From Marinilabiliales bacterium (GTDB lineage Bacteria > Bacteroidota > Bacteroidia > Bacteroidales > PUMT01): a DNA stretch of 64,000 nt. The stretch is taken from positions 1 to 64,000 of the forward strand of contig REEN01000065.1 in NCBI GenBank assembly GCA_007695015.1, written 5' to 3'. Below are positions 13,566-53,945 of this stretch, in pieces. Position numbers and translations under genes: made by a program. Every line of letters starts with the position of its first letter. Positions within the stretch are counted from its first letter, which is position 1. The notes below the pieces were generated by a model. The model did no database searches, was not told where the DNA came from, and saw only the letters and a list, made by a program, of their open reading frames with translations.

Positions 13566-13609
13566 TCAGGAATATATCTTTTATTTACCCATTGAACGAA
13601 AACAAAGCT

Positions 13610-13771
13610 ATGAAGAGACACAAATGCAGGGTATGCGGATACCTTTACGATCAGGAAAACGGCGATGCAGCCGGCGGGATTGAACCCGGAACCCCCTTTG
13701 AGGAGCTTCCCGACAACTGGAAATGCCCGGTGTGCGGCGCAGGGACAGAGGAGTTCAAGCCGGCGGACTGA
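13610..13771 (+). CDS. Rubredoxin
   Basis: This 53-residue protein was read by direct translation. It shows both iron-binding knuckles, CRVCGYLYD and CPVCGAG, with the usual [19 protein letters not shown] between them. Rubredoxin carries one electron on a single Fe(Cys)4 centre, typically to oxygen- or peroxide-reducing enzymes in anaerobes. It lies 44 bp after the decarboxylase beta subunit and may be co-transcribed, though a metabolic link is not obvious. Confidence 0.95.
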
Positions 13772-13861
13772 GACCGGTGAACCGGCCCTCCGGGGACAGG
13801 GCGTCTAGATAACTGATGCCGGCAGCAGGACCCGGCTTTCCGGCTGCCTGATATGCCGGCT

Positions 13862-15313
13862 TCAGGGTATTGTTCTGAGCACCTCCAGCAGCAGGTCCCA
13901 GAACCGGGTCACCGAGCCGATATGCAGCCTCTCATCAGGCGAGTGGGCCCCCTTTATAGTGGGGCCAAAGGATATCATATCGAGTCCGGGATACTTCTCC
14001 AGGAAAAGTCCGCATTCCAGTCCCGCATGTATTGCGCGGACCACCGGTTCGTTACCGAACAGCTTCTTATAGGCGGATTCTGTAAGGTTAAGTATCTTCG
14101 AATCCCGGTTGGGGTTCCAGCCCGGATATGATCCGGTTCTTTTTACATTTGCATTTGCCAGCCTGAAAACACTTTCGACCATAGCTGCCACATCGGCCTT
14201 TGCGGAATCGGATGATGACCGCTGACTTGTGGTTATAAGGATCCTGTTGTCTTTAAATTTTACAGAGGCGAGGCTGGTGGAGGTCTCAACCAGTCCCTCT
14301 ATCTTCGGGCTCCATGCTATTACTCCGTGTGGACATGCGTAAAGTGAATAGAGAAGATCGATCTGCGTGTCCTCATCCACCGCAGTTCCCGGCAGTTCAG
14401 CTTCACTGAGGGAGATCGACAGTCCCCTGTCCGCTTCGGTCATTTCCGTCATAACTGCCTGCCTGAATGATCCGAAGTACTCCTTCATGTCGCCGGCATC
14501 ATCTCGGTGGATTGAAAACAGGGCTTCGGCCTCCCTTGGAATGGCATTACGCAGGTTGCCTCCGTTAAATGATACTAGTTTCATATCATATCTGTTGTTC
14601 AGGTTCCAAAGGAAGCGGTTCAGTATCTTGTTGGAGTTACCCCTGCCCCTGTGAATGTCATCACCCGAATGCCCCCCTGCAAGTCCCCCGACCTTAACCA
14701 TGAATCCGGTATGGGAAGAGGGTATCTCCTCCTCATCATACTCCATGGTTGCAAGTGTGTCCACACCTCCGGCGCAGCCAATGAAAAGCTCTCCCTCATC
14801 TTCCGAGTCCAGGTTTATCAGGGTTTTCCCTTCAAAGAAACCCGGTTCCAGGGCAAATGCACCCGTGAGACCGGTCTCTTCGTCGACGGTGAAGAGGCAC
14901 TCTATCTTGCCGTGCTGCAGATCGCCTGAGGCCAGAACAGCAAGCTGGGCTGCCATGCCAATACCGTCATCCGCACCCAGGGTTGTTCCAGTTGCCCTGA
15001 CCCACTCACCGTCAATTACCGGTATGATGGGGTCATTTTCAAAATCATGGGTCACATCAGAATTTTTTTCACACACCATATCCATATGACTCTGCAGGAC
15101 AACCGTCTGCCTGTTCTCAAATCCCCCGGCAGCCGGCTTGGTTATAAGCAGGTTGCCGGCGGCATCCCTTTTGATTTCAAGACCCTGCTCTGCAGCGAAG
15201 CGGATCAGCCACTCTGTTATTTTCCCCTCTTTTTTTGAAGGCCGGGGCACCCTGCTGACTTCCTCAAAATATTTCCAGATCAGTTCCGGTTTGAGCTTTT
15301 CAGATATTGCCAT
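13862..15313 (-). CDS. pepD: Aminoacyl-histidine dipeptidase (M20 family)
   Basis: This 483-residue cytosolic zinc dipeptidase (peptidase D / carnosinase type) has SHMDMVCEK (metal-binding His and catalytic Asp), GTTLGADDGIGMA, and FTVDEETGLTG (general-base Glu plus metal-binding Glu). A lid-domain region GLAGGHSGDDIHRGRGN and a C-terminal SFGPTIKGAHSPDERLHI with the last metal His follow. It hydrolyses Xaa-His and other dipeptides. Length matches the family. It is transcribed away from the M-box/mgtE unit and converges on the rubredoxin gene. Confidence 0.93.
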   Translation of the reverse strand: MAISEKLKPELIWKYFEEVSRVPRPSKKEGKITEWLIRFAAEQGLEIKRDAAGNLLITKPAAGGFENRQTVVLQSHMDMVCEKNSDVTHDFENDPIIPVIDGEWVRATGTTLGADDGIGMAAQLAVLASGDLQHGKIECLFTVDEETGLTGAFALEPGFFEGKTLINLDSEDEGELFIGCAGGVDTLATMEYDEEEIPSSHTGFMVKVGGLAGGHSGDDIHRGRGNSNKILNRFLWNLNNRYDMKLVSFNGGNLRNAIPREAEALFSIHRDDAGDMKEYFGSFRQAVMTEMTEADRGLSISLSEAELPGTAVDEDTQIDLLYSLYACPHGVIAWSPKIEGLVETSTSLASVKFKDNRILITTSQRSSSDSAKADVAAMVESVFRLANANVKRTGSYPGWNPNRDSKILNLTESAYKKLFGNEPVVRAIHAGLECGLFLEKYPGLDMISFGPTIKGAHSPDERLHIGSVTRFWDLLLEVLRTIP

Positions 15314-15433
15314 AGTTATAACCTCTTTTTGTGCTGAGAATACCGGCGCAAATTAGCGGTTTTTTGAATTAATGCAATTTTTTACAGGTTTTTTATTAGT
15401 GAACAGCTGTTTTTTTTTTGAGAATATTCTTCT
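15314..15433. other. Divergent intergenic region between pepD and the mgtE riboswitch
   Basis: This is the gene-free start of the 467-base gap between pepD and mgtE. It is AT-rich with T-runs near 15359-15420. I see no coding sequence. A CAAATTAG near 15350 resembles, but does not match, a minus-strand -7 box for pepD. The rest of the gap is the M-box and its terminator. Confidence 0.4.
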
Positions 15434-15441
15434 TAATTTTG
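15434..15441 (+). promoter_or_regulatory. -7 box of the M-box/mgtE transcript
   Basis: TAATTTTG matches TAnnTTTG and lies 7 nt before the first strand of riboswitch helix P1 (15448), so the RNA would start almost exactly at the aptamer. The nearest TTTG upstream (15417-15420) is only 13 nt away, shorter than the usual spacing. Confidence 0.55.
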
Positions 15442-15447
15442 TGCCCG

Positions 15448-15606
15448 GTTTTAGCCTGTTAGGTGAGGCTACTGAATGAACACAGGCTGCTGCCCAAAAA
15501 CGTCCACAGACGCCAATGGGTAGAACAGGCCCTGCCGGATTAAGGCTTGGCATAATGCAGCTTTCCGTTTTGCACGGAATAAGTCATTCAGAGCTAAAAC
15601 TCAACA
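15448..15606 (+). ncRNA. M-box (ykoK leader) magnesium riboswitch aptamer
   Basis: The conserved M-box blocks occur in order: GTTAGGTGAGGCT (15458-15470), CTGCTGCCCAAAAA (15487-15500), GACGCCAATGGGT (15509-15521) and ATGCAGCT (15555-15562). Helix P1 is closed by GTTTTAGC (15448-15455) with GCTAAAAC (15593-15600), eight perfect pairs. M-box RNAs bind several Mg2+ ions and shut off magnesium transporter genes when Mg2+ is ample. The gene downstream is mgtE, which confirms the call. A terminator follows at once (15670-15695), so control should act on transcription. Confidence 0.95.
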
Positions 15607-15607
15607 A

Positions 15608-15695
15608 GGGGCATCTTTCTCATACCGGTTAGCGGCACAAACCCGCGAATCAGTCTGTATGTCTGTTATGCCCCTTCCACGGAAGGGCTTTTTTT
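15608..15695 (+). terminator. Expression platform of the M-box: terminator and competing antiterminator
   Basis: GCCCCTTCC (15670-15678) pairs with GGAAGGGC (15681-15688), with one bulged C, and is followed by seven Ts (15689-15695): a standard intrinsic terminator. The 5' arm overlaps ATGCCCC (15668-15674), which is a perfect 7-base complement of GGGGCAT (15608-15614). That upstream pairing, stacked over an inner GCGG/CCGC stem (15632-15646), would block the terminator. How the aptamer decides between the two is not settled from sequence, since P1 does not directly overlap GGGGCAT. Confidence 0.8.
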
Positions 15696-15780
15696 ATTTG
15701 GCCCTGCCCGTTTATAAGCCCACCCGGGACTTTAACCATCTATTGTGCGGATTTTTCATGTAAATAAATAACACCGGGTT

Positions 15781-17166
15781 ATGGTAGATATAGTAAAGGA
15801 CCAGAGACACTCTATCGTAAGGGGTCTTATTGAGGCTGACGAGATGGAAGCCCTCGGGGCGATCTTAAAAAAGATGCCGTCGGTTGAGACTGCAGAACTT
15901 CTTAAGAACCTGTCCGGTGAACAGATCCTGAAACTTCTGCCGGATTTTGCTGATGAGGATCTCGGGGATATCGCCTCAAACATGGAGATGGAGCAGTTGC
16001 TTGAACTGTTCGATATTGCAGACCGGCGGCTGTTTGCCAGGATATTCACCAACATGTCGTCCGATATAAGGGCTGACCTTTACCAGGAACTGGATAAGGA
16101 CCAGCAGCTTGAGCTGCTGCCTTTCCTGGACAAAAGGACCCGTGAGAACGTTATCTTCCTCAGCTCCTTCCCGGAAGAGACGGCAGGAAGTATCATGATC
16201 ACCGACTTTGCCACGGTAAGGGCAGATATGACTGTTAACCGGGCCATTGAAAAGATCAGGCAGGATGCACCCTCCAAAAAGATGATCTACTATGTTTACG
16301 TGGTTGACGAGAACATGAAGCTGAGAGGCTTTGTCACTCTCAAGGATATCATCATGGCTGAACCTGATACCCCGGTAGGAGATATATTGCATTCCGACTT
16401 TGTTTGGGCCGATGTGAAAGAGGACAGGGAGAGTGTTGCACAAAAGATAGAGAAATATGATATGGTTGCCATACCGGTTCTCAATGCCCACCGGCAGCTT
16501 GCAGGAATCGTCAGGCATGATGAGGCTATAGATGTCATCCGGGCAGAGCATACCGAGGACCTGGAGAAATTCATGGGTATTGTGCATGCCCCGGAGGACC
16601 TTAATTATGTTGAAACGGGAGTGTTCGGGCATTTCAGGAAAAGGGTGGTATGGCTGTCGTCTCTTGCCGTGATAGGAATTATTTCGGGAATGATAATACA
16701 TCGTTACGAAGAGGCGATGACTTCGCTTATCATTCTTGCTCTTTATATGCCCATGATTGCCGATACGGGAGGTAACGCCGGTTCACAGGCTGCAACCATG
16801 GTCATCAGGGCGATCGCGCTCGGGCAGATAACGGCCCGGAGCTGGCTGAAAATTCTGTTCAAGGAGGCGAGGATAGCATTCCTGCTGTCACTGGTACTCG
16901 GTGTTATAGCTTTCGGCAAGATACTTTTCCTTTCATGGGAGACTGATGTGCCCCCGGAATATAACCTTTTGTTTATTGCATTTGCCATTTCGCTTGCATT
17001 AAGCCTGCAGGTCATAACGTCTACGGTTTTGGGTGCCGGACTTCCACTGCTGGTCAAGCGCCTCGGGGGCGACCCGGCTGTCGCTGCAAGTCCCGCGATT
17101 ACCACACTGGTTGATATAACGGGACTGCTAATATATTTCGGGGTCGCCACTTTGTTTTTCTTTTGA
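15781..17166 (+). CDS. mgtE: Magnesium transporter MgtE
   Basis: This 461-residue channel has the full family layout: N-terminal helical superhelix (about 1-130, LPDFADEDLGDIA), tandem CBS domains that sense Mg2+ (about 135-260, RGFVTLKDIIMAEPDTPVG), a connecting helix, and five membrane helices. The pore region is MPMIADTGGNAGSQAATMVI, containing the family-defining GGNAGSQ. It imports Mg2+ and is gated by the cytosolic Mg2+ level. The start at 15781 lies 85 nt after the riboswitch terminator. Regulation is therefore doubly Mg2+-linked, at RNA and protein level. Confidence 0.97.
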   Translation: MVDIVKDQRHSIVRGLIEADEMEALGAILKKMPSVETAELLKNLSGEQILKLLPDFADEDLGDIASNMEMEQLLELFDIADRRLFARIFTNMSSDIRADLYQELDKDQQLELLPFLDKRTRENVIFLSSFPEETAGSIMITDFATVRADMTVNRAIEKIRQDAPSKKMIYYVYVVDENMKLRGFVTLKDIIMAEPDTPVGDILHSDFVWADVKEDRESVAQKIEKYDMVAIPVLNAHRQLAGIVRHDEAIDVIRAEHTEDLEKFMGIVHAPEDLNYVETGVFGHFRKRVVWLSSLAVIGIISGMIIHRYEEAMTSLIILALYMPMIADTGGNAGSQAATMVIRAIALGQITARSWLKILFKEARIAFLLSLVLGVIAFGKILFLSWETDVPPEYNLLFIAFAISLALSLQVITSTVLGAGLPLLVKRLGGDPAVAASPAITTLVDITGLLIYFGVATLFFF

Positions 17167-17247
17167 TTATTTTTGAAGTTGGCTCAGTTTCCGGATGGCC
17201 TTTGCCGGCACTCCGGCGCCGCTTTATTAATTCAAAATTCCTGAAGT

Positions 17248-19197
17248 ATGCCCTTCCTGCGATCCGTTGTTTCGTTTTTTGTGGTACTCATCACTTCAAT
17301 GGCCTATGCCGGTGCTGCCCCGCCGGTATTCTCCGGCAAGCCTGCATCGAAAACCGGATTTGATGCCGTTCATCATGAACGGACTGTTTTCCAGGTACAG
17401 GAGGTGCCCGGCGCCAGGCAGGCGGTCGCCCGTTCTCTTACAGTGCTGGTCAACGATAATGCCCGTTTGCCACTGGCAGATCTTGAAAAGGGAAGCTTTG
17501 CAGTCCTTACCGTGGGGCAGGCAGAGTTTTTTGCAACCAGGCTCAACGACTACCTTGCCATGGAGGTTGTAAACATTGACCCTCTTTGTATCAGATCATA
17601 TGATGAGGCGTTCGTGAGGTTGTCGCGGCATGACCGCATTATTGCGGGTATCACTGCTGCCGCCCTGCCTGCAAATCCTGATAACCGCATCCTGTCAGGC
17701 CGCCTGACGGAATTCCTTGCTGAGAAAGAAGCCACCGTGGTCTTTTTCGGTCCCCTGCTGTTCCTGGGTCAGTGGGGCGGTATTGACGGTGTGCCCGGAC
17801 TTCTGTGGGCCGGCAATGACACACCGCTTGCACAGGACCTTTCCGCACAGGCTCTCTTCGGGGCCATAGCCACCGGAGGCAACCTGCCGGAGGCTGCAGG
17901 GAGTATTTTTGAACAGGGACATGGAATTGCCACACCGGGAGGGTGGAGGCTGGCATTTTCCGTACCCGGCGAGGCCGGGATTGACGGAAGAATGTTGCAG
18001 CACAGGGTTGATTCCATTGTGAAGAGCGGACTGGAGATGAAGGCATTCCCGGGATGCAGGGTGCTTGCTGCCGTGAACGGAAAGGTCATATTCGACAAGG
18101 CCTGGGGGCACCACACATATGACCGCAGGGTGGCCGTGCACCGGGATGACCTGTATGACCTGGCTTCGGTTACCAAGATATCAGGCCCGCTGCCCCTTTA
18201 CATGAAGCTTGTTGACGAAGGACGTCTTGACCTGGACATGCCCCTCAGCCACTACTGGGATGACTGGGAGAACAGGTTGTTCAGAAGGTCGAACAAGGAG
18301 GATATCCTGCTGCGCGATCTCCTCACACACCAGTCGGGTATCGTCCCCTATATCAACTACTGGGAGCGGACCGTCAGAAGGGGGCATTACATCAGGCGGT
18401 GGTACAGGTTGGAACCGGCAGGGCGTCACAACACGGAAATAGGCACTCATCTGTACCTGAGGGATGATTTCCGCGACCGGGTGTACCGTGATATCAGGAG
18501 GAGCGACCTGTTCACGCAAGGTGAATACAGGTACTCCTGTCTGCCTTTTATAGTATCGCCCGAAGTATTGTCAAGAGTTGACGGAAGACCATATACCGAG
18601 GCGTTGTACGATGATTTCTTCAGGCCCCTCGGGGCGGGGACCCTCCGGTACAATCCCCGCCGATTCTTTTCGCTCTACCGGATCGTACCTACTGAAACAG
18701 ACAACAACTTCAGGAGAAAGGTGGTCCACGGTTATGTTCATGATGAGGCTGCAGCCGTGCTGGGAGGGGTAAGCGGCAATGCCGGACTTTTTTCATCGGC
18801 TGTCGATCTTGCCAAGTTACTGCAGATGTATCTCAACGGGGGTGAGTATGGGGGCAGGAGATACCTTTCGGAGGAAGTGATCGCTGAATTTACCCGGGTT
18901 CAGTTCCCTGAGAACGACAACCGCAGGGGGATCGGCTTTGACAAACCTGTGCCCGACAATGCTGACCGTTCCCCCGAAAGGGCATACCCCTGCAGGGGCG
19001 CTTCGCCGTCCAGCTTTGGGCACAGCGGCTTCACCGGCACTTTTGTCTGGATGGACCCGGAGCATGACCTGCTCTATATTTTTCTGTCAAACAGGGTTCA
19101 TCCCACAAGGGACAATAACCTTATCAGCATTATGAATATAAGGACCGAAATACTCCAGGTGTTCTATGACGCGCTGAATACGGCTCTTACAAAGTAA
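17248..19197 (+). CDS. Exported beta-lactamase-fold serine hydrolase with GH3 C-terminal domain, lacking the GH3 barrel
   Basis: A signal peptide (LRSVVSFFVVLITSMAYAGA) is followed by about 200 residues that align with the GH3 C-terminal domain of the fusion protein at 6037-9090 (IIAGITAAALPANPDNR versus LVIAGVHNPDNRRS; AQALFGAIATGGNLP versus AQLIFGAVAASGRLP). The beta-lactamase/esterase domain follows, with S307-V-T-K310 and H592-S-G. The NagZ-type barrel and its KHFPGHGDTD motif are absent. The second catalytic motif reads Y429-S-C where the paralogue has Y-S-D; the Tyr is kept. The two proteins are clearly paralogues, and the barrel was probably lost here. The 3' end overlaps the convergent DUF456 gene by 34 bp. 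Confidence 0.85.
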   Translation: MPFLRSVVSFFVVLITSMAYAGAAPPVFSGKPASKTGFDAVHHERTVFQVQEVPGARQAVARSLTVLVNDNARLPLADLEKGSFAVLTVGQAEFFATRLNDYLAMEVVNIDPLCIRSYDEAFVRLSRHDRIIAGITAAALPANPDNRILSGRLTEFLAEKEATVVFFGPLLFLGQWGGIDGVPGLLWAGNDTPLAQDLSAQALFGAIATGGNLPEAAGSIFEQGHGIATPGGWRLAFSVPGEAGIDGRMLQHRVDSIVKSGLEMKAFPGCRVLAAVNGKVIFDKAWGHHTYDRRVAVHRDDLYDLASVTKISGPLPLYMKLVDEGRLDLDMPLSHYWDDWENRLFRRSNKEDILLRDLLTHQSGIVPYINYWERTVRRGHYIRRWYRLEPAGRHNTEIGTHLYLRDDFRDRVYRDIRRSDLFTQGEYRYSCLPFIVSPEVLSRVDGRPYTEALYDDFFRPLGAGTLRYNPRRFFSLYRIVPTETDNNFRRKVVHGYVHDEAAAVLGGVSGNAGLFSSAVDLAKLLQMYLNGGEYGGRRYLSEEVIAEFTRVQFPENDNRRGIGFDKPVPDNADRSPERAYPCRGASPSSFGHSGFTGTFVWMDPEHDLLYIFLSNRVHPTRDNNLISIMNIRTEILQVFYDALNTALTK

Positions 19198-19649
19198 ACC
19201 GTGAGGGTGCCCGAAACGGCAAGCTTAAGTCCCACTCCCAGCAGGAACCCTGCAAAAGAGCCAAGTCCCGCGACCACCGCCCTGCGCCCTCCAGCGCCCC
19301 TGATCAGCTCCCCTGCAATTGCCCCTGCAAGCGGCCCCAGCAGCAGTCCTGCCGGCGGGAAGAAAAATATCCCGGCAAAGATGCCTATTCCCGCCCCCCA
19401 CATGCCGTACCTGGAGCCTCCGAACTTTTTGGTGGCCCATACGGGAACTGCCAGATCAACCAGGGTAACCAATACGGCAATAATTCCTGTAATGATGAGG
19501 AAGTTTACTGTAAACTCTGCATATTTTGTAAAGCTTACGAGGAGAAGTGCCAGGAAGCTAAGCGGGGGACCCGGGATGACGGGAAGCAGGCAGCCCGCAA
19601 TTCCTGCAAGCAATAGCAGGACCGAGACAGATAGCAGAATTACATCCAT
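19164..19649 (-). CDS. DUF456 family membrane protein
   Basis: This 161-residue protein is almost wholly hydrophobic, with about four membrane segments. GCLLPVIPGPPLSFLALLL near the N-terminus and a Gly/Ala-rich LGPLAGAIAGELI-type segment are typical of DUF456. Function is unknown. Its last 34 bases overlap the end of the convergent serine hydrolase gene. The ATG at 19647-19649 gives a membrane segment directly at the N-terminus. Confidence 0.8.
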   Translation of the reverse strand: MDVILLSVSVLLLLAGIAGCLLPVIPGPPLSFLALLLVSFTKYAEFTVNFLIITGIIAVLVTLVDLAVPVWATKKFGGSRYGMWGAGIGIFAGIFFFPPAGLLLGPLAGAIAGELIRGAGGRRAVVAGLGSFAGFLLGVGLKLAVSGTLTVYFVRAVFSAS

Positions 19650-19697
19650 TGGGTAAAAATAGGAATTTTTAGCTGACCGGACTGCCGGGGTTCCGAA

Positions 19698-19985
19698 TTA
19701 CTTTTTACTGAAGGCACACCCGGAACATGATGCACAGTAGCCGGCGGTGAACTTCCCCGTTTTACCGGAGAGGGTTCCCGGTCCGGCAGTGAAACTTCCC
19801 TTTCCTGCTGCGGGGCCTCTTTTATTGCCGGATATTACATCAGTGCCGGCGGTGAACTTTCCTGTGCCGCCACTGATAGCTCCCATGCCGCCCTTAAGCC
19901 TGTCAGGCAGGAAAGTCAGTGCCGTGTGGTATATGGTATATGTAACCGCGTAAATAATTGCTGAATATGACAGTATGTCCTGCAT
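19698..19985 (-). CDS. FeoB-associated Cys-rich membrane protein, with internal repeats
   Basis: This 95-residue protein starts 8 bp after the feoB stop, in the same direction. It has one N-terminal hydrophobic segment (SYSAIIYAVTYTIYHTALTF) and a C-terminal C84-x2-C87-x2-C90 motif followed by two lysines. This is the layout of the small FeoB-associated Cys-rich proteins thought to help FeoB in iron uptake. Unlike the usual short form, it carries a roughly 50-residue Gly-rich insert with three near-copies of GKFTAG at 42-47, 63-68 and 77-82. Assignment rests on position, topology and the Cys motif. Confidence 0.7.
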   Translation of the reverse strand: MQDILSYSAIIYAVTYTIYHTALTFLPDRLKGGMGAISGGTGKFTAGTDVISGNKRGPAAGKGSFTAGPGTLSGKTGKFTAGYCASCSGCAFSKK

Positions 19986-19993
19986 AGTTTTTT

Positions 19994-22492
19994 TCAGATA
20001 ATCAGGCTAACAAAATTGTAGACCAGGAACGACATTATCCAGGCGAGCCCGGTTGTGTATAGAACCATGAAAGCCGCCCACTTCCAGTGCCCCGATTCGT
20101 TCTTTATAGCTGCAATAACAGCAACACACGGGAAATACAGAAGTATGAACACCAGGAATGAAAGGGCCGATGCGGTGGTGAAAACCCTGGTGCCGTCGGG
20201 ATATCTTTGCTGCTTCAGTTTGTCTCCAAGGCTTTCAGACGGGATACCGACTTCGCTTTCAGCATGGTACAGCACCCCCATTGTGCTTACCACGATCTCT
20301 TTTGCTGCAAGTCCCGATACAAGGGCTACCCCCATTTTCCAGTCAAATCCGAGTGGTGCCAGGACAGGCTCGATAAACCTGCCAATTCTTTCTATATATG
20401 AGCTCTGTTCAGTACTGAAACCCTGGGAGGCATCCGTTGCCGCGTCTGCCGGCATGCCTGCGGCACCTGATCCTGGGGTAGCTGATGCCGGGGTTATCAA
20501 TTCTGCGGCTTTGTCAGTATCATAGTGAGCGAGTGCCGTGTTCTGGTCATTTACTGCGGCAGTTCGCGATCCTGTGGGGAAATAGCCCAGGGCCCATATG
20601 ATGATTGATGCAACCAGTATTATACCCCCCATCTTTTTCAGGTAGAGTGATCCCTTGTGCCACATATGGCGCAGAGTTGTTTTGAGTGTGGGTATCCTGT
20701 AAGGAGGCAGTTCCATTACAAAAGGAACATCATCGGAGCGGAACAGCAGCCTTTTGAAAATCAGGGCAACCATCACCGCCATTACAATCCCGAACCCGTA
20801 AAGTCCGAACAGCACAATCCCCGGATATTTGGGAAAAAAGGCCCCGATGATCAGCACATAAACGGGCAGCCTGGCGCTGCACGACATGAACGGGTTTATG
20901 AGCATCGTCAGCAACCGGTTGTTCCTGTTCTCTATGGTTCGTGTGGCCATAATTGCAGGTACGTTGCAGCCAAATCCCATGATCAGGGGTATGAATGACT
21001 TTCCGTGCAGTCCTATCTGGTGCATCAACCTGTCCATTATAAAGGCTGCCCTGGCCATGTACCCGGTATCTTCCATAAGTGAAATGAAAAAAAACAGGAT
21101 AAGGATATTCGGCAGGAACACGATCACTCCCCCGACCCCGCCTATCATCCCGTTGATAAGCAGATCTTTGAAGCTTCCTTCTGCCATTCGGCTGTCAATA
21201 AACTCACCGGTGACCTCAACCAGGCCCTCTATCCATTCCATCGGATATTCCCCAAGCCTGAAGGTTGCCATGAACATAACGAATATAAAGAGGAGAAACA
21301 GAGGGAAACCAAGAACCTGGTTGGTAAGGATGGCGTCTATGGCCTCCGACCGTTTACGGCGTGTCACAGGCGACCGTTTCATGGTCTCCCGCAGGGCACC
21401 CGATACAAAACCATACTTTGCATCTGTTATCAGGGTTTCGCTGTCCTCGCCAATGGCAGCTTCCAGGCGTTTTACCTCCCTGCCTGCAACGTTGGCAATT
21501 TCAGCCGCGTTTTCAAGCACTGATATCCGTTTTCCGGCATCGCTGTCTTTCTCAAGCAGCTTCAGAGCAAGAAACCGTGAAGATATCTTGTCGGTAAGAT
21601 GGAGGTTTACCTTGATCCTTTCCTGTATGCGCCCTATCGATAGCTCTATTTCGGGGCCGTAGTTGATGTGAACATGCCTCATGTCCCTGTCCTCGTCCTC
21701 ATAAACATCAATTACTTTCTGAAACAGGTCGTTAATTCCAATTCCCCTTGAGCCTATGGTGGGGCTTACCGGGATGCCGGTCATCCTGGCAAGAGATTCA
21801 TAGTCCAGTTCGTCACCCGCCTCGAGCAGCTCATCATACATGTTCAAAGCCATTACCACCTTGATGTCCATGTCGATCAGCTGGGTGGTGAGGAACAGGT
21901 TCCGTTCGAGGTTTGAGGCATCAACAACGTTAATTACAACATCGGGAAGCTGCTCAATTATATGTTCCCTGACGAACAGCTCATCGGGAGACCATGCGGT
22001 AAGAGAATAGGTGCCGGGAAGGTCGACAATATTGAACCTGTATCCCCTGAGGGAAAACTTTCCATACTTGGCATCAATTGTCACACCCCCGTAGTTGCCC
22101 ACTCTCTCCTTTGAGCGTGTCGCAGAATTGAAGAGTGTGGTCTTCCCTGAGTTGGGATTGCCCACCATGGCAACATTGATGACTTTCCCCTTTACATCAG
22201 CCTTGTTTTTCAGCCATTTTTCAGTTACGATCCCGTTGTATTTTTCCTTAACCTTTTCGGGAGCCTCATCAGGGGTGATCACTTCGATAAGGGCTGCTTC
22301 ACTTTTGCGAAGCGAGATCTCGTAACCCATTATGCTGTATTCGACGGGATCTTTAAGAGGGGCATTTTTGATTACCTTCACAGTTTTTCCCCTGATGAAT
22401 CCCATCTCGGTTATCCTTTTGCGGAAAGCGCCCCGCCCCTTAACCTTGGTAATGATCCCGCTCTGGTCGGTATGAAGCTCTGCAAGGGTCAT
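19994..22492 (-). CDS. feoB: Ferrous iron transporter, FeoA-FeoB fusion
   Basis: The 832-residue protein begins with a FeoA-type SH3-like domain (1-75; GRGAFRKRITEMGFIRG), fused to FeoB. The G-protein domain has G1 GNPNSGKTT (111-119) and G3 DLPGTYSL; a helical GDI-like domain follows, then the membrane core with the two Gate regions (GFGCNVPAIMATRTI and SGLAAKEIVVSTMGVLY). It imports Fe2+ across the inner membrane. FeoA-FeoB fusions are usual in Bacteroidota. An Ala/Gly/Pro-rich loop near residue 680 (TPASATPGSGAAGMPADA) is longer than I would expect. The small Cys-rich partner gene follows. Confidence 0.96.
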   Translation of the reverse strand: MTLAELHTDQSGIITKVKGRGAFRKRITEMGFIRGKTVKVIKNAPLKDPVEYSIMGYEISLRKSEAALIEVITPDEAPEKVKEKYNGIVTEKWLKNKADVKGKVINVAMVGNPNSGKTTLFNSATRSKERVGNYGGVTIDAKYGKFSLRGYRFNIVDLPGTYSLTAWSPDELFVREHIIEQLPDVVINVVDASNLERNLFLTTQLIDMDIKVVMALNMYDELLEAGDELDYESLARMTGIPVSPTIGSRGIGINDLFQKVIDVYEDEDRDMRHVHINYGPEIELSIGRIQERIKVNLHLTDKISSRFLALKLLEKDSDAGKRISVLENAAEIANVAGREVKRLEAAIGEDSETLITDAKYGFVSGALRETMKRSPVTRRKRSEAIDAILTNQVLGFPLFLLFIFVMFMATFRLGEYPMEWIEGLVEVTGEFIDSRMAEGSFKDLLINGMIGGVGGVIVFLPNILILFFFISLMEDTGYMARAAFIMDRLMHQIGLHGKSFIPLIMGFGCNVPAIMATRTIENRNNRLLTMLINPFMSCSARLPVYVLIIGAFFPKYPGIVLFGLYGFGIVMAVMVALIFKRLLFRSDDVPFVMELPPYRIPTLKTTLRHMWHKGSLYLKKMGGIILVASIIIWALGYFPTGSRTAAVNDQNTALAHYDTDKAAELITPASATPGSGAAGMPADAATDASQGFSTEQSSYIERIGRFIEPVLAPLGFDWKMGVALVSGLAAKEIVVSTMGVLYHAESEVGIPSESLGDKLKQQRYPDGTRVFTTASALSFLVFILLYFPCVAVIAAIKNESGHWKWAAFMVLYTTGLAWIMSFLVYNFVSLII

Positions 22493-52201: not shown

Positions 52202-52275
52202 GCCGATGTAGCTCAGCTGGTCAGAGCAGCTGATTTGTAATCAGCAGGTCGGGGGTTCGAATCCGTCCATCGGCT
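52202..52275 (+). tRNA. tRNA-Thr (anticodon TGT)
   Basis: 74 nt. Acceptor GCCGATG pairs with CATCGGC. The anticodon stem GCTGA/TCAGC encloses loop TTTGTAA with anticodon TGT, reading ACA. The T-arm is GGGGGTTCGAATCC-like. CCA is not encoded. Confidence 0.96.
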
Positions 52276-52296
52276 CAAGTGTGGTAAAAGTAACAG

Positions 52297-52382
52297 GGGG
52301 AGATACCAAAGTGGCCAACTGGGGCAGACTGTAAATCTGCTGTCGCACGACTTCGGAGGTTCGAATCCTTCTCTCCCCACCA
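52297..52382 (+). tRNA. tRNA-Tyr (anticodon GTA)
   Basis: This is a class II tRNA with a long variable arm. Acceptor GGGGAGA pairs with TCTCCCC; anticodon stem GCAGA/TCTGC with loop CTGTAAA gives GTA. The mature body ends at A52379. CCA (52380-52382) follows directly, so the 3' end is encoded, unlike in the other four tRNAs here. Confidence 0.96.
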
Positions 52383-52391
52383 GTTGCACAA

Positions 52392-52464
52392 GCGGGAGTA
52401 GCTCAGTTGGTAGAGCATCAGCCTTCCACGCTGAGGGTCGCGGGTCCGAGTCCCGTCTCCCGCT
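52392..52464 (+). tRNA. tRNA-Gly (anticodon TCC)
   Basis: 73 nt. Acceptor GCGGGAG pairs with CTCCCGC; anticodon stem TCAGC/GCTGA with loop CTTCCAC gives TCC, reading GGA. CCA is not encoded. Confidence 0.96.
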
Positions 52465-52472
52465 CTTTCATT

Positions 52473-52544
<72 letters not shown>

Positions 52545-52615
52545 CGAATATTTAATGTTTTTACAGAGTTTGAAACCAATAATTTTATATCATTTTATCT
52601 AATAATTCTGGAGTT

Positions 52616-53857: not shown

Positions 53858-53930
53858 ACGGGTGTAGCTCAATTGGTAGAGTAGCGGTCTCCAAAACCGT
53901 TGGCTGGGAGTTCGAGTCTCTCCACCCGTG
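53858..53930 (+). tRNA. tRNA-Trp (anticodon CCA)
   Basis: 73 nt. Acceptor ACGGGTG pairs with CACCCGT; anticodon stem GCGGT/ACCGT with loop CTCCAAA gives anticodon CCA, reading TGG; discriminator G. The 3' CCA is not encoded. It lies 15 nt before secE, so it must be cut out of the same transcript. Confidence 0.96.
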
Positions 53931-53945
53931 CTAATTAATTTCAAC

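Follow-up and report, generated by a model that had tools for sequence, protein, structure and literature searches.

The mgtE gene in the 64,000-nucleotide stretch of DNA analysed here (hereafter, the window) is preceded by a well-formed M-box OFF switch of an ordinary kind, found in an unusual phylum, the Bacteroidota. We assign a probability of about 0.92 to this main reading, in which a canonical M-box controls mgtE as a transcriptional OFF switch, most likely by halting transcription of the Mg2+ importer when magnesium is plentiful. With a Firmicutes-style terminator riboswitch standing under an apparent Bacteroidota promoter, in a phylum nearly without the class, the leader provides a compact setting in which to study the spread of a riboswitch and of its expression platform. 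The features concerned are the following:

15434-15441, + strand: -7 promoter box TAATTTTG (TAnnTTTG), from the sequence
15448-15618, + strand: M-box (ykoK) magnesium riboswitch aptamer, RF00380 (cmscan, full model)
15454-15459, + strand: P1 5' strand (GCCUGU), Infernal alignment mapped to coordinates
15604-15612, + strand: P1 3' strand ACAAGGGGC, paired at 15604-15605 and 15609-15612
15606-15614, + strand: antiterminator 5' strand AAGGGGCAU, shared in part with the P1 3' strand
15668-15676, + strand: antiterminator 3' strand AUGCCCCUU, shared in part with the terminator 5' arm
15672-15687, + strand: intrinsic terminator hairpin CCCUUC-CACG-GAAGGG (6-bp stem CCCUUC/GAAGGG, loop CACG)
15689-15695, + strand: U7 tract of the terminator, from the sequence
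15781-17166, + strand: mgtE, 461-aa magnesium transporter with MgtE_N, CBS and MgtE domains

Judged by its sequence, the element at 15448-15618 is a genuine full-length M-box aptamer of the known class. The Rfam covariance search (cmscan) matched RF00380 on the forward strand with 146 bits against a gathering threshold of 44 (E 4e-33), covering model positions 1-169 of 169, and the closing helix P1 joins both ends of the aptamer through 6 pairs between 15454-15459 and 15604-15612. The sequence-only reading that preceded this analysis had listed all conserved M-box blocks and P1 as present, which holds except that here the bases at the two outermost P1 positions of the Rfam model do not match. 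Its placement of the M-box before mgtE was confirmed: the gene, which starts 162 nt after the last base of the aptamer, encodes the Pfam domains PF03448, PF00571 and PF01769 and scores 336.7 bits against the NCBIfam equivalog TIGR00400 (cut-off 232.75), marking 15781-17166, on sequence grounds, as a bona fide mgtE. An Rfam search of the whole genome of the window, which is 98.5% complete, found one M-box, and mgtE is the genome's only PF01769 gene.

Between aptamer and gene sits an intrinsic terminator (15672-15695), whose U-tract ends 85 nt before the mgtE start. It had been called strong; the U-tailed hairpin is indeed there, but at -9.1 kcal/mol, with 18/200 shuffled sequences equally stable, it is moderate, and the better evidence for it is conservation among relatives (hairpins containing the U-tract were excluded from the terminator search). 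Its 5' arm had also been said to pair perfectly with GGGGCAT just after P1. The pairing is perfect and extends over 9 bp rather than 7, as 15668-15676, which includes 5/6 bases of the terminator 5' arm, is fully complementary to 15606-15614; GGGGCAT, however, does not follow P1 but is mostly P1's own 3' strand. Since the antiterminator thereby shares the P1 3' strand as well as the terminator 5' arm, the sequence predicts two mutually exclusive structures, such that the RNA forms either P1 with the terminator or the antiterminator, never both. As a control for chance, we examined 163 other sites in the window at which a hairpin is followed by a T-run, none of which (0/163) had more than 6 contiguous Watson-Crick bases against the last 18 nt of the aptamer.

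Folding of 15448-15700 without constraints gave the antiterminator state as the minimum free energy structure (-83.9 kcal/mol; z -3.27, 0/200 shuffles as stable), with the P1 5' strand (15453-15457) additionally pairing with the end of the terminator 3' arm (15685-15689). Enforcing aptamer and terminator gave -77.5 kcal/mol. These energies leave out tertiary contacts and co-transcriptional folding, and the gap between them is therefore of the sort that Mg2+ binding would have to make up; that the model favours the antiterminator is as expected if switching needs Mg2+-dependent tertiary contacts.

In the mechanism that we propose, at low Mg2+ the aptamer would leave P1 unclosed and the strand at 15606-15614 would pair with that at 15668-15676, such that the antiterminator blocks the terminator and mgtE is transcribed. 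With sufficient Mg2+, a compact aptamer would close P1 and sequester AAGGGGC, the terminator at 15672-15695 would form, and transcription would end before mgtE. We infer Mg2+ binding and this direction of switching for the present leader; for the B. subtilis M-box the mechanism has been published, in a paper that also gives the intrinsic terminator as the route of most M-boxes (Shin 2014, PMC4072509).

The same platform logic, written in different letters, was found in two Bacillota M-boxes. The mgtE (ykoK) M-box of Bacillus velezensis (L116) matches the full RF00380 model at 146.9 bits and precedes mgtE, as in the window, and the 5' arm of its intrinsic terminator likewise complements the P1 3' strand (UGGAGGC/GCCUUCA). 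Its aptamer is 64% identical to the window's, so the letters of P1 and terminator differ while their complementarity is kept, and its terminator starts 26 nt past the aptamer, compared with 53 in the window. On an Alicyclobacillus plasmid (L117), an M-box of 146 bits is similarly followed by an antiterminator (GGGGGAU/AUCCCCU) and a terminator, but the downstream gene is a divalent metal cation transporter rather than mgtE. Two further Alicyclobacillus plasmids were matched by blastn only; one (L127) carries a CBS-domain protein and an Nramp transporter downstream, in place of mgtE, while no annotated gene is listed downstream on the other (L126).

Upstream of the aptamer, TAATTTTG at 15434-15441 conforms to TAnnTTTG, which we take to be the Bacteroidota-type -7 consensus. 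The box had been placed 7 nt before P1; it is present, but its last base lies 12 nt upstream of the first P1 pair and 6 nt upstream of where the Rfam match starts. Upstream sequence was extracted for 11 leaders of the window's family (f1), the window's included, and in 6 of these TAnnTTTG begins 14 nt upstream of the Rfam match. No clear -33 element was seen by eye upstream of the leader. A scan of 13600-20000 for sigma-70 promoters found 6 sites against 5.8 expected, none of them upstream of the leader, and the TAnnTTTG box is preferred; we infer its use as the promoter. Leaders of a second family of the window's order (f33) carry a -7 box, TATATTTG, in 3/4 cases (L007, L123, L124), at 39-42 nt upstream of the aptamer as against 14 in f1, the fourth having one base of upstream sequence; this spacing could mean that the leader is longer or starts elsewhere.

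The phylum has very few M-boxes. RF00380 was found in 13/149 relatives, in 9/393 genomes of the window's order and in 2/394 genomes sampled from the phylum, the window's own genome being included each time and surveys of more than 40 genomes being run with stricter filters that lose weak matches. The elements were seen in f1 and f33, two families that both belong to the window's order and in which they precede mgtE, and in f154, a family of another class of the same phylum. Within f1, which comprises two genera, 12/16 genomes have an M-box, own included; the four members without one (G001, G002, G005, G012; completeness 74-94) have distant MgtE matches or none. When the window's MgtE was searched against 60 relatives, a homologue of at least 66% identity was found in 13 genomes, all of which (13/13) have an M-box; in one of them (G014) there is another MgtE besides, 55% identical, but still just one M-box. 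Of 58 MgtE loci taken from genome contigs, 11 have an M-box and 47 do not, two of the latter (L040, L042) having almost no upstream sequence. All 11 loci with an M-box come from Bacteroidales/Bacteroidetes MAGs labelled CSSed, B1Sed or T1Sed, labels that suggest an origin in soda-lake or saline sediment. Going by such labels, most of the window's close named relatives are MAGs from soda-lake sediment, a habitat that has been described as poor in calcium and magnesium (PMC6146748).

Two genomes that appeared to hold two M-boxes each (G007, G644) were set aside as such, their partial matches being one element split by a contig end. In both pairs (L076/L077 in G007, L121/L122 in G644) the contigs stop inside the M-box, one per pair after 119 nt. 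It seems that the conserved aptamer causes metagenome assemblies to break, so that M-boxes may be undercounted in MAGs. The presence of the class in this part of the tree is not new, given that a Bacteroidetes/Chlorobi metagenome fragment with a ykoK/M-box is tabulated by Kazanov 2007 (PMC2211319). Our literature search on M-box riboswitches in Bacteroidetes returned just a tool paper, which uses the B. subtilis mgtE M-box.

That the M-box was acquired by transfer, as had been raised, is possible: the patchy distribution fits transfer or heavy loss, and the trees give neither direction nor donor. In MgtE trees built from chosen rows (38 of the 58 loci, the window and three f33 proteins, with B. 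velezensis in one tree only), f1 (100/99) and f33 (100/100) are each firm, while their joint support is 64/45; several deep forks are weak, and the tree needs just a single change of M-box state. Whether there was one gain or a transfer is not settled by the MgtE trees. In the aptamer tree, which omits G007, the 19 aptamers from Bacteroidota group together (98/97), apart from seven outgroup rows, of which six come from Bacillota plasmids and one is a viral-collection contig, and the window's aptamer is 74-80% identical to those of f154 and 64-68% to the outgroup rows, so that in this small sample the M-boxes of the phylum look like one lineage. This single group, spanning two classes with different target genes, would fit an M-box that was ancestral in the phylum and was lost almost everywhere rather than gained by transfer. 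We regard such an ancestry as a real possibility, although we lean away from it: with an M-box in 2 of the 394 genomes sampled from the phylum it would require very many losses, and the closest MgtE proteins without an M-box, up to 66% identical in a partial match, are scattered over several phyla, their sources including Leptospiraceae, Chloroherpetonaceae, Cyclobacteriaceae, Marinilabiliaceae and Bdellovibrionota, among others.

Whatever its origin, the switch is conserved at sequence level in all of its parts, aptamer, P1/terminator and antiterminator. We compared 20 M-box leaders of the phylum, 12 from f1 (the window's included), 4 from f33 and 4 from f154. Of these, 18/20 have a terminator hairpin at or below -7.2 kcal/mol, and 19/20 an antiterminator in which the aptamer 3' end and the terminator 5' arm form 5 or more Watson-Crick pairs. 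These relatives, together with the analysis of the platform, bear out the earlier assignments of the element as terminator-coupled and of Bacteroidota origin. An alignment of 11 f1 leaders (without G007, whose copy is cut) shows a near-invariant aptamer, a variable linker of about 50 nt, and a conserved island that returns at the terminator. In the terminators of G003 and G008, U-A stands in place of a C-G pair, both bases having changed, and the antiterminator is kept by G-U; as the two are sister taxa, we count this exchange as one event. Two genomes have a poor platform: the hairpin of G009 reaches -0.3 kcal/mol, and that of G015 -3.5 kcal/mol, with an antiterminator of 4 bp. In these leaders (L018 and L062, respectively) the aptamer is intact and the terminator or antiterminator degenerate, for which loss of control, another form of control or an assembly error are possible explanations.

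Two other accounts of the switch itself deserve mention. An intact aptamer could be tuned to, or gated chiefly by, another divalent ion or ionic strength in general, with the same terminator switch controlling MgtE; M-box relatives do precede Nramp-type genes in other bacteria, which prompted earlier tests, but the Nramp-linked M-boxes acted as Mg2+ sensors (PMC4072509), and here the aptamer core is near-consensus (146 bits) and the target an equivalog MgtE, making this account very improbable. Even less credible is control that is mainly translational or Rho-dependent, with the hairpin an incidental or constitutive attenuator: the pe20 Mbox of Mycobacterium tuberculosis, an aptamer of the same class linked to a Mg2+-related operon, is reported to act in these ways (PMC12810186), translation attenuation is commoner outside Firmicutes (PMC2258182), and two relatives have weak hairpins, but the window has an intrinsic terminator, its stem, U-tract and overlap with the P1 complement are conserved again past a variable linker, and the U-tract lies 85 nt away from the mgtE start.

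While the proposed transcriptional OFF switch would govern mgtE in the window, the M-boxes of f154 stand before other genes. In the class to which f154 belongs, 4/245 genomes have an M-box (G356, G817, G823, G832), all of them in f154. Each matches RF00380 (130-148 bits) and has both a terminator and an antiterminator, like the window's, with which their aptamers group, yet none (0/4) precedes mgtE. In three of the four genomes (G356, G817, G823) the M-box is followed by an OprB-type porin, a permease of 584-585 aa and an ABC ATPase, whereas in G832 the permease follows directly, without the porin. The proteins of G356 show the domains OprB, BPD_transp_1 (in two stretches, the permease thus having two domains), and ABC_tran with AAA_assoc_C. 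The loci of these operons are L074 3901-8814 (G356), L118, L119 and L120. The permease occurs in 20/245 genomes of the class at E <=1e-60, with an M-box in 4/20. At the permease loci without an M-box, the G356 OprB had no match within the flanks covered. Another known riboswitch was considered for these loci and rejected, with no Rfam match at 16/16, the stretches covered extending about 1.5 kb or less past the permease.

We tentatively propose, with the odds somewhat against it, that the f154 permease and ATPase, with an outer-membrane channel of their own, form an ABC-type Mg2+ importer, a further class of uptake system. The proposal stems from the near-constant association of M-boxes with Mg2+ transporters, an association that revealed NrmT (PMC4072509), together with the failure to find CorA or MgtE in any of the permease-carrying f154 genomes examined (10/10). 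More broadly, neither CorA (PF01544) nor MgtE (PF01769) was found in 14/20 permease-positive genomes as against 3/20 permease-negative ones (Fisher p 0.001), the latter being 20 listed genomes of 225 negatives; since 10 of the 14 importer-less genomes with the permease come from one family, they represent far fewer than 14 independent cases. The permease occurs together with CorA or MgtE in f152, f170 and f176, and three genomes (G798 of f154, G187, G406) have neither the permease nor CorA or MgtE. Against an importer of this kind, the permease looks like a member of the nitrate/taurine/betaine type and reaches none of the equivalog cut-offs shown, and genes that are merely helpful in Mg2+ starvation can likewise come under M-box control. 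By eye, no binding-protein gene was recognised beside the permease in the stretches read. Our literature search, which left most subscription journals outside its reach, found no title on an M-box-linked ABC importer; a phrase for an ABC-type magnesium transporter was met as the label of mgtA in one paper's table. The f154 operon is the part of these results likely to surprise specialists, and its role in Mg2+ import is a prediction; such an importer would open to direct test the question of how bacteria lacking CorA and MgtE acquire Mg2+.

Several minor observations accompany these results. Plasmids of Enterococcus gilvus (L125) and E. raffinosus (L128) carry an M-box-like sequence, about 80% identical to the window's (blastn only), directly before genes of the FtsW/RodA/SpoVE family. 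In the window itself, near mgtE, 19994-22492 on the reverse strand encodes an 832-aa protein that by eye resembles a FeoA-FeoB fusion (ferrous iron uptake). Further along, four tRNA genes (Thr, Tyr, Gly, Thr) lie at 52202-52545 and a tRNA-Trp gene at 53858-53931.
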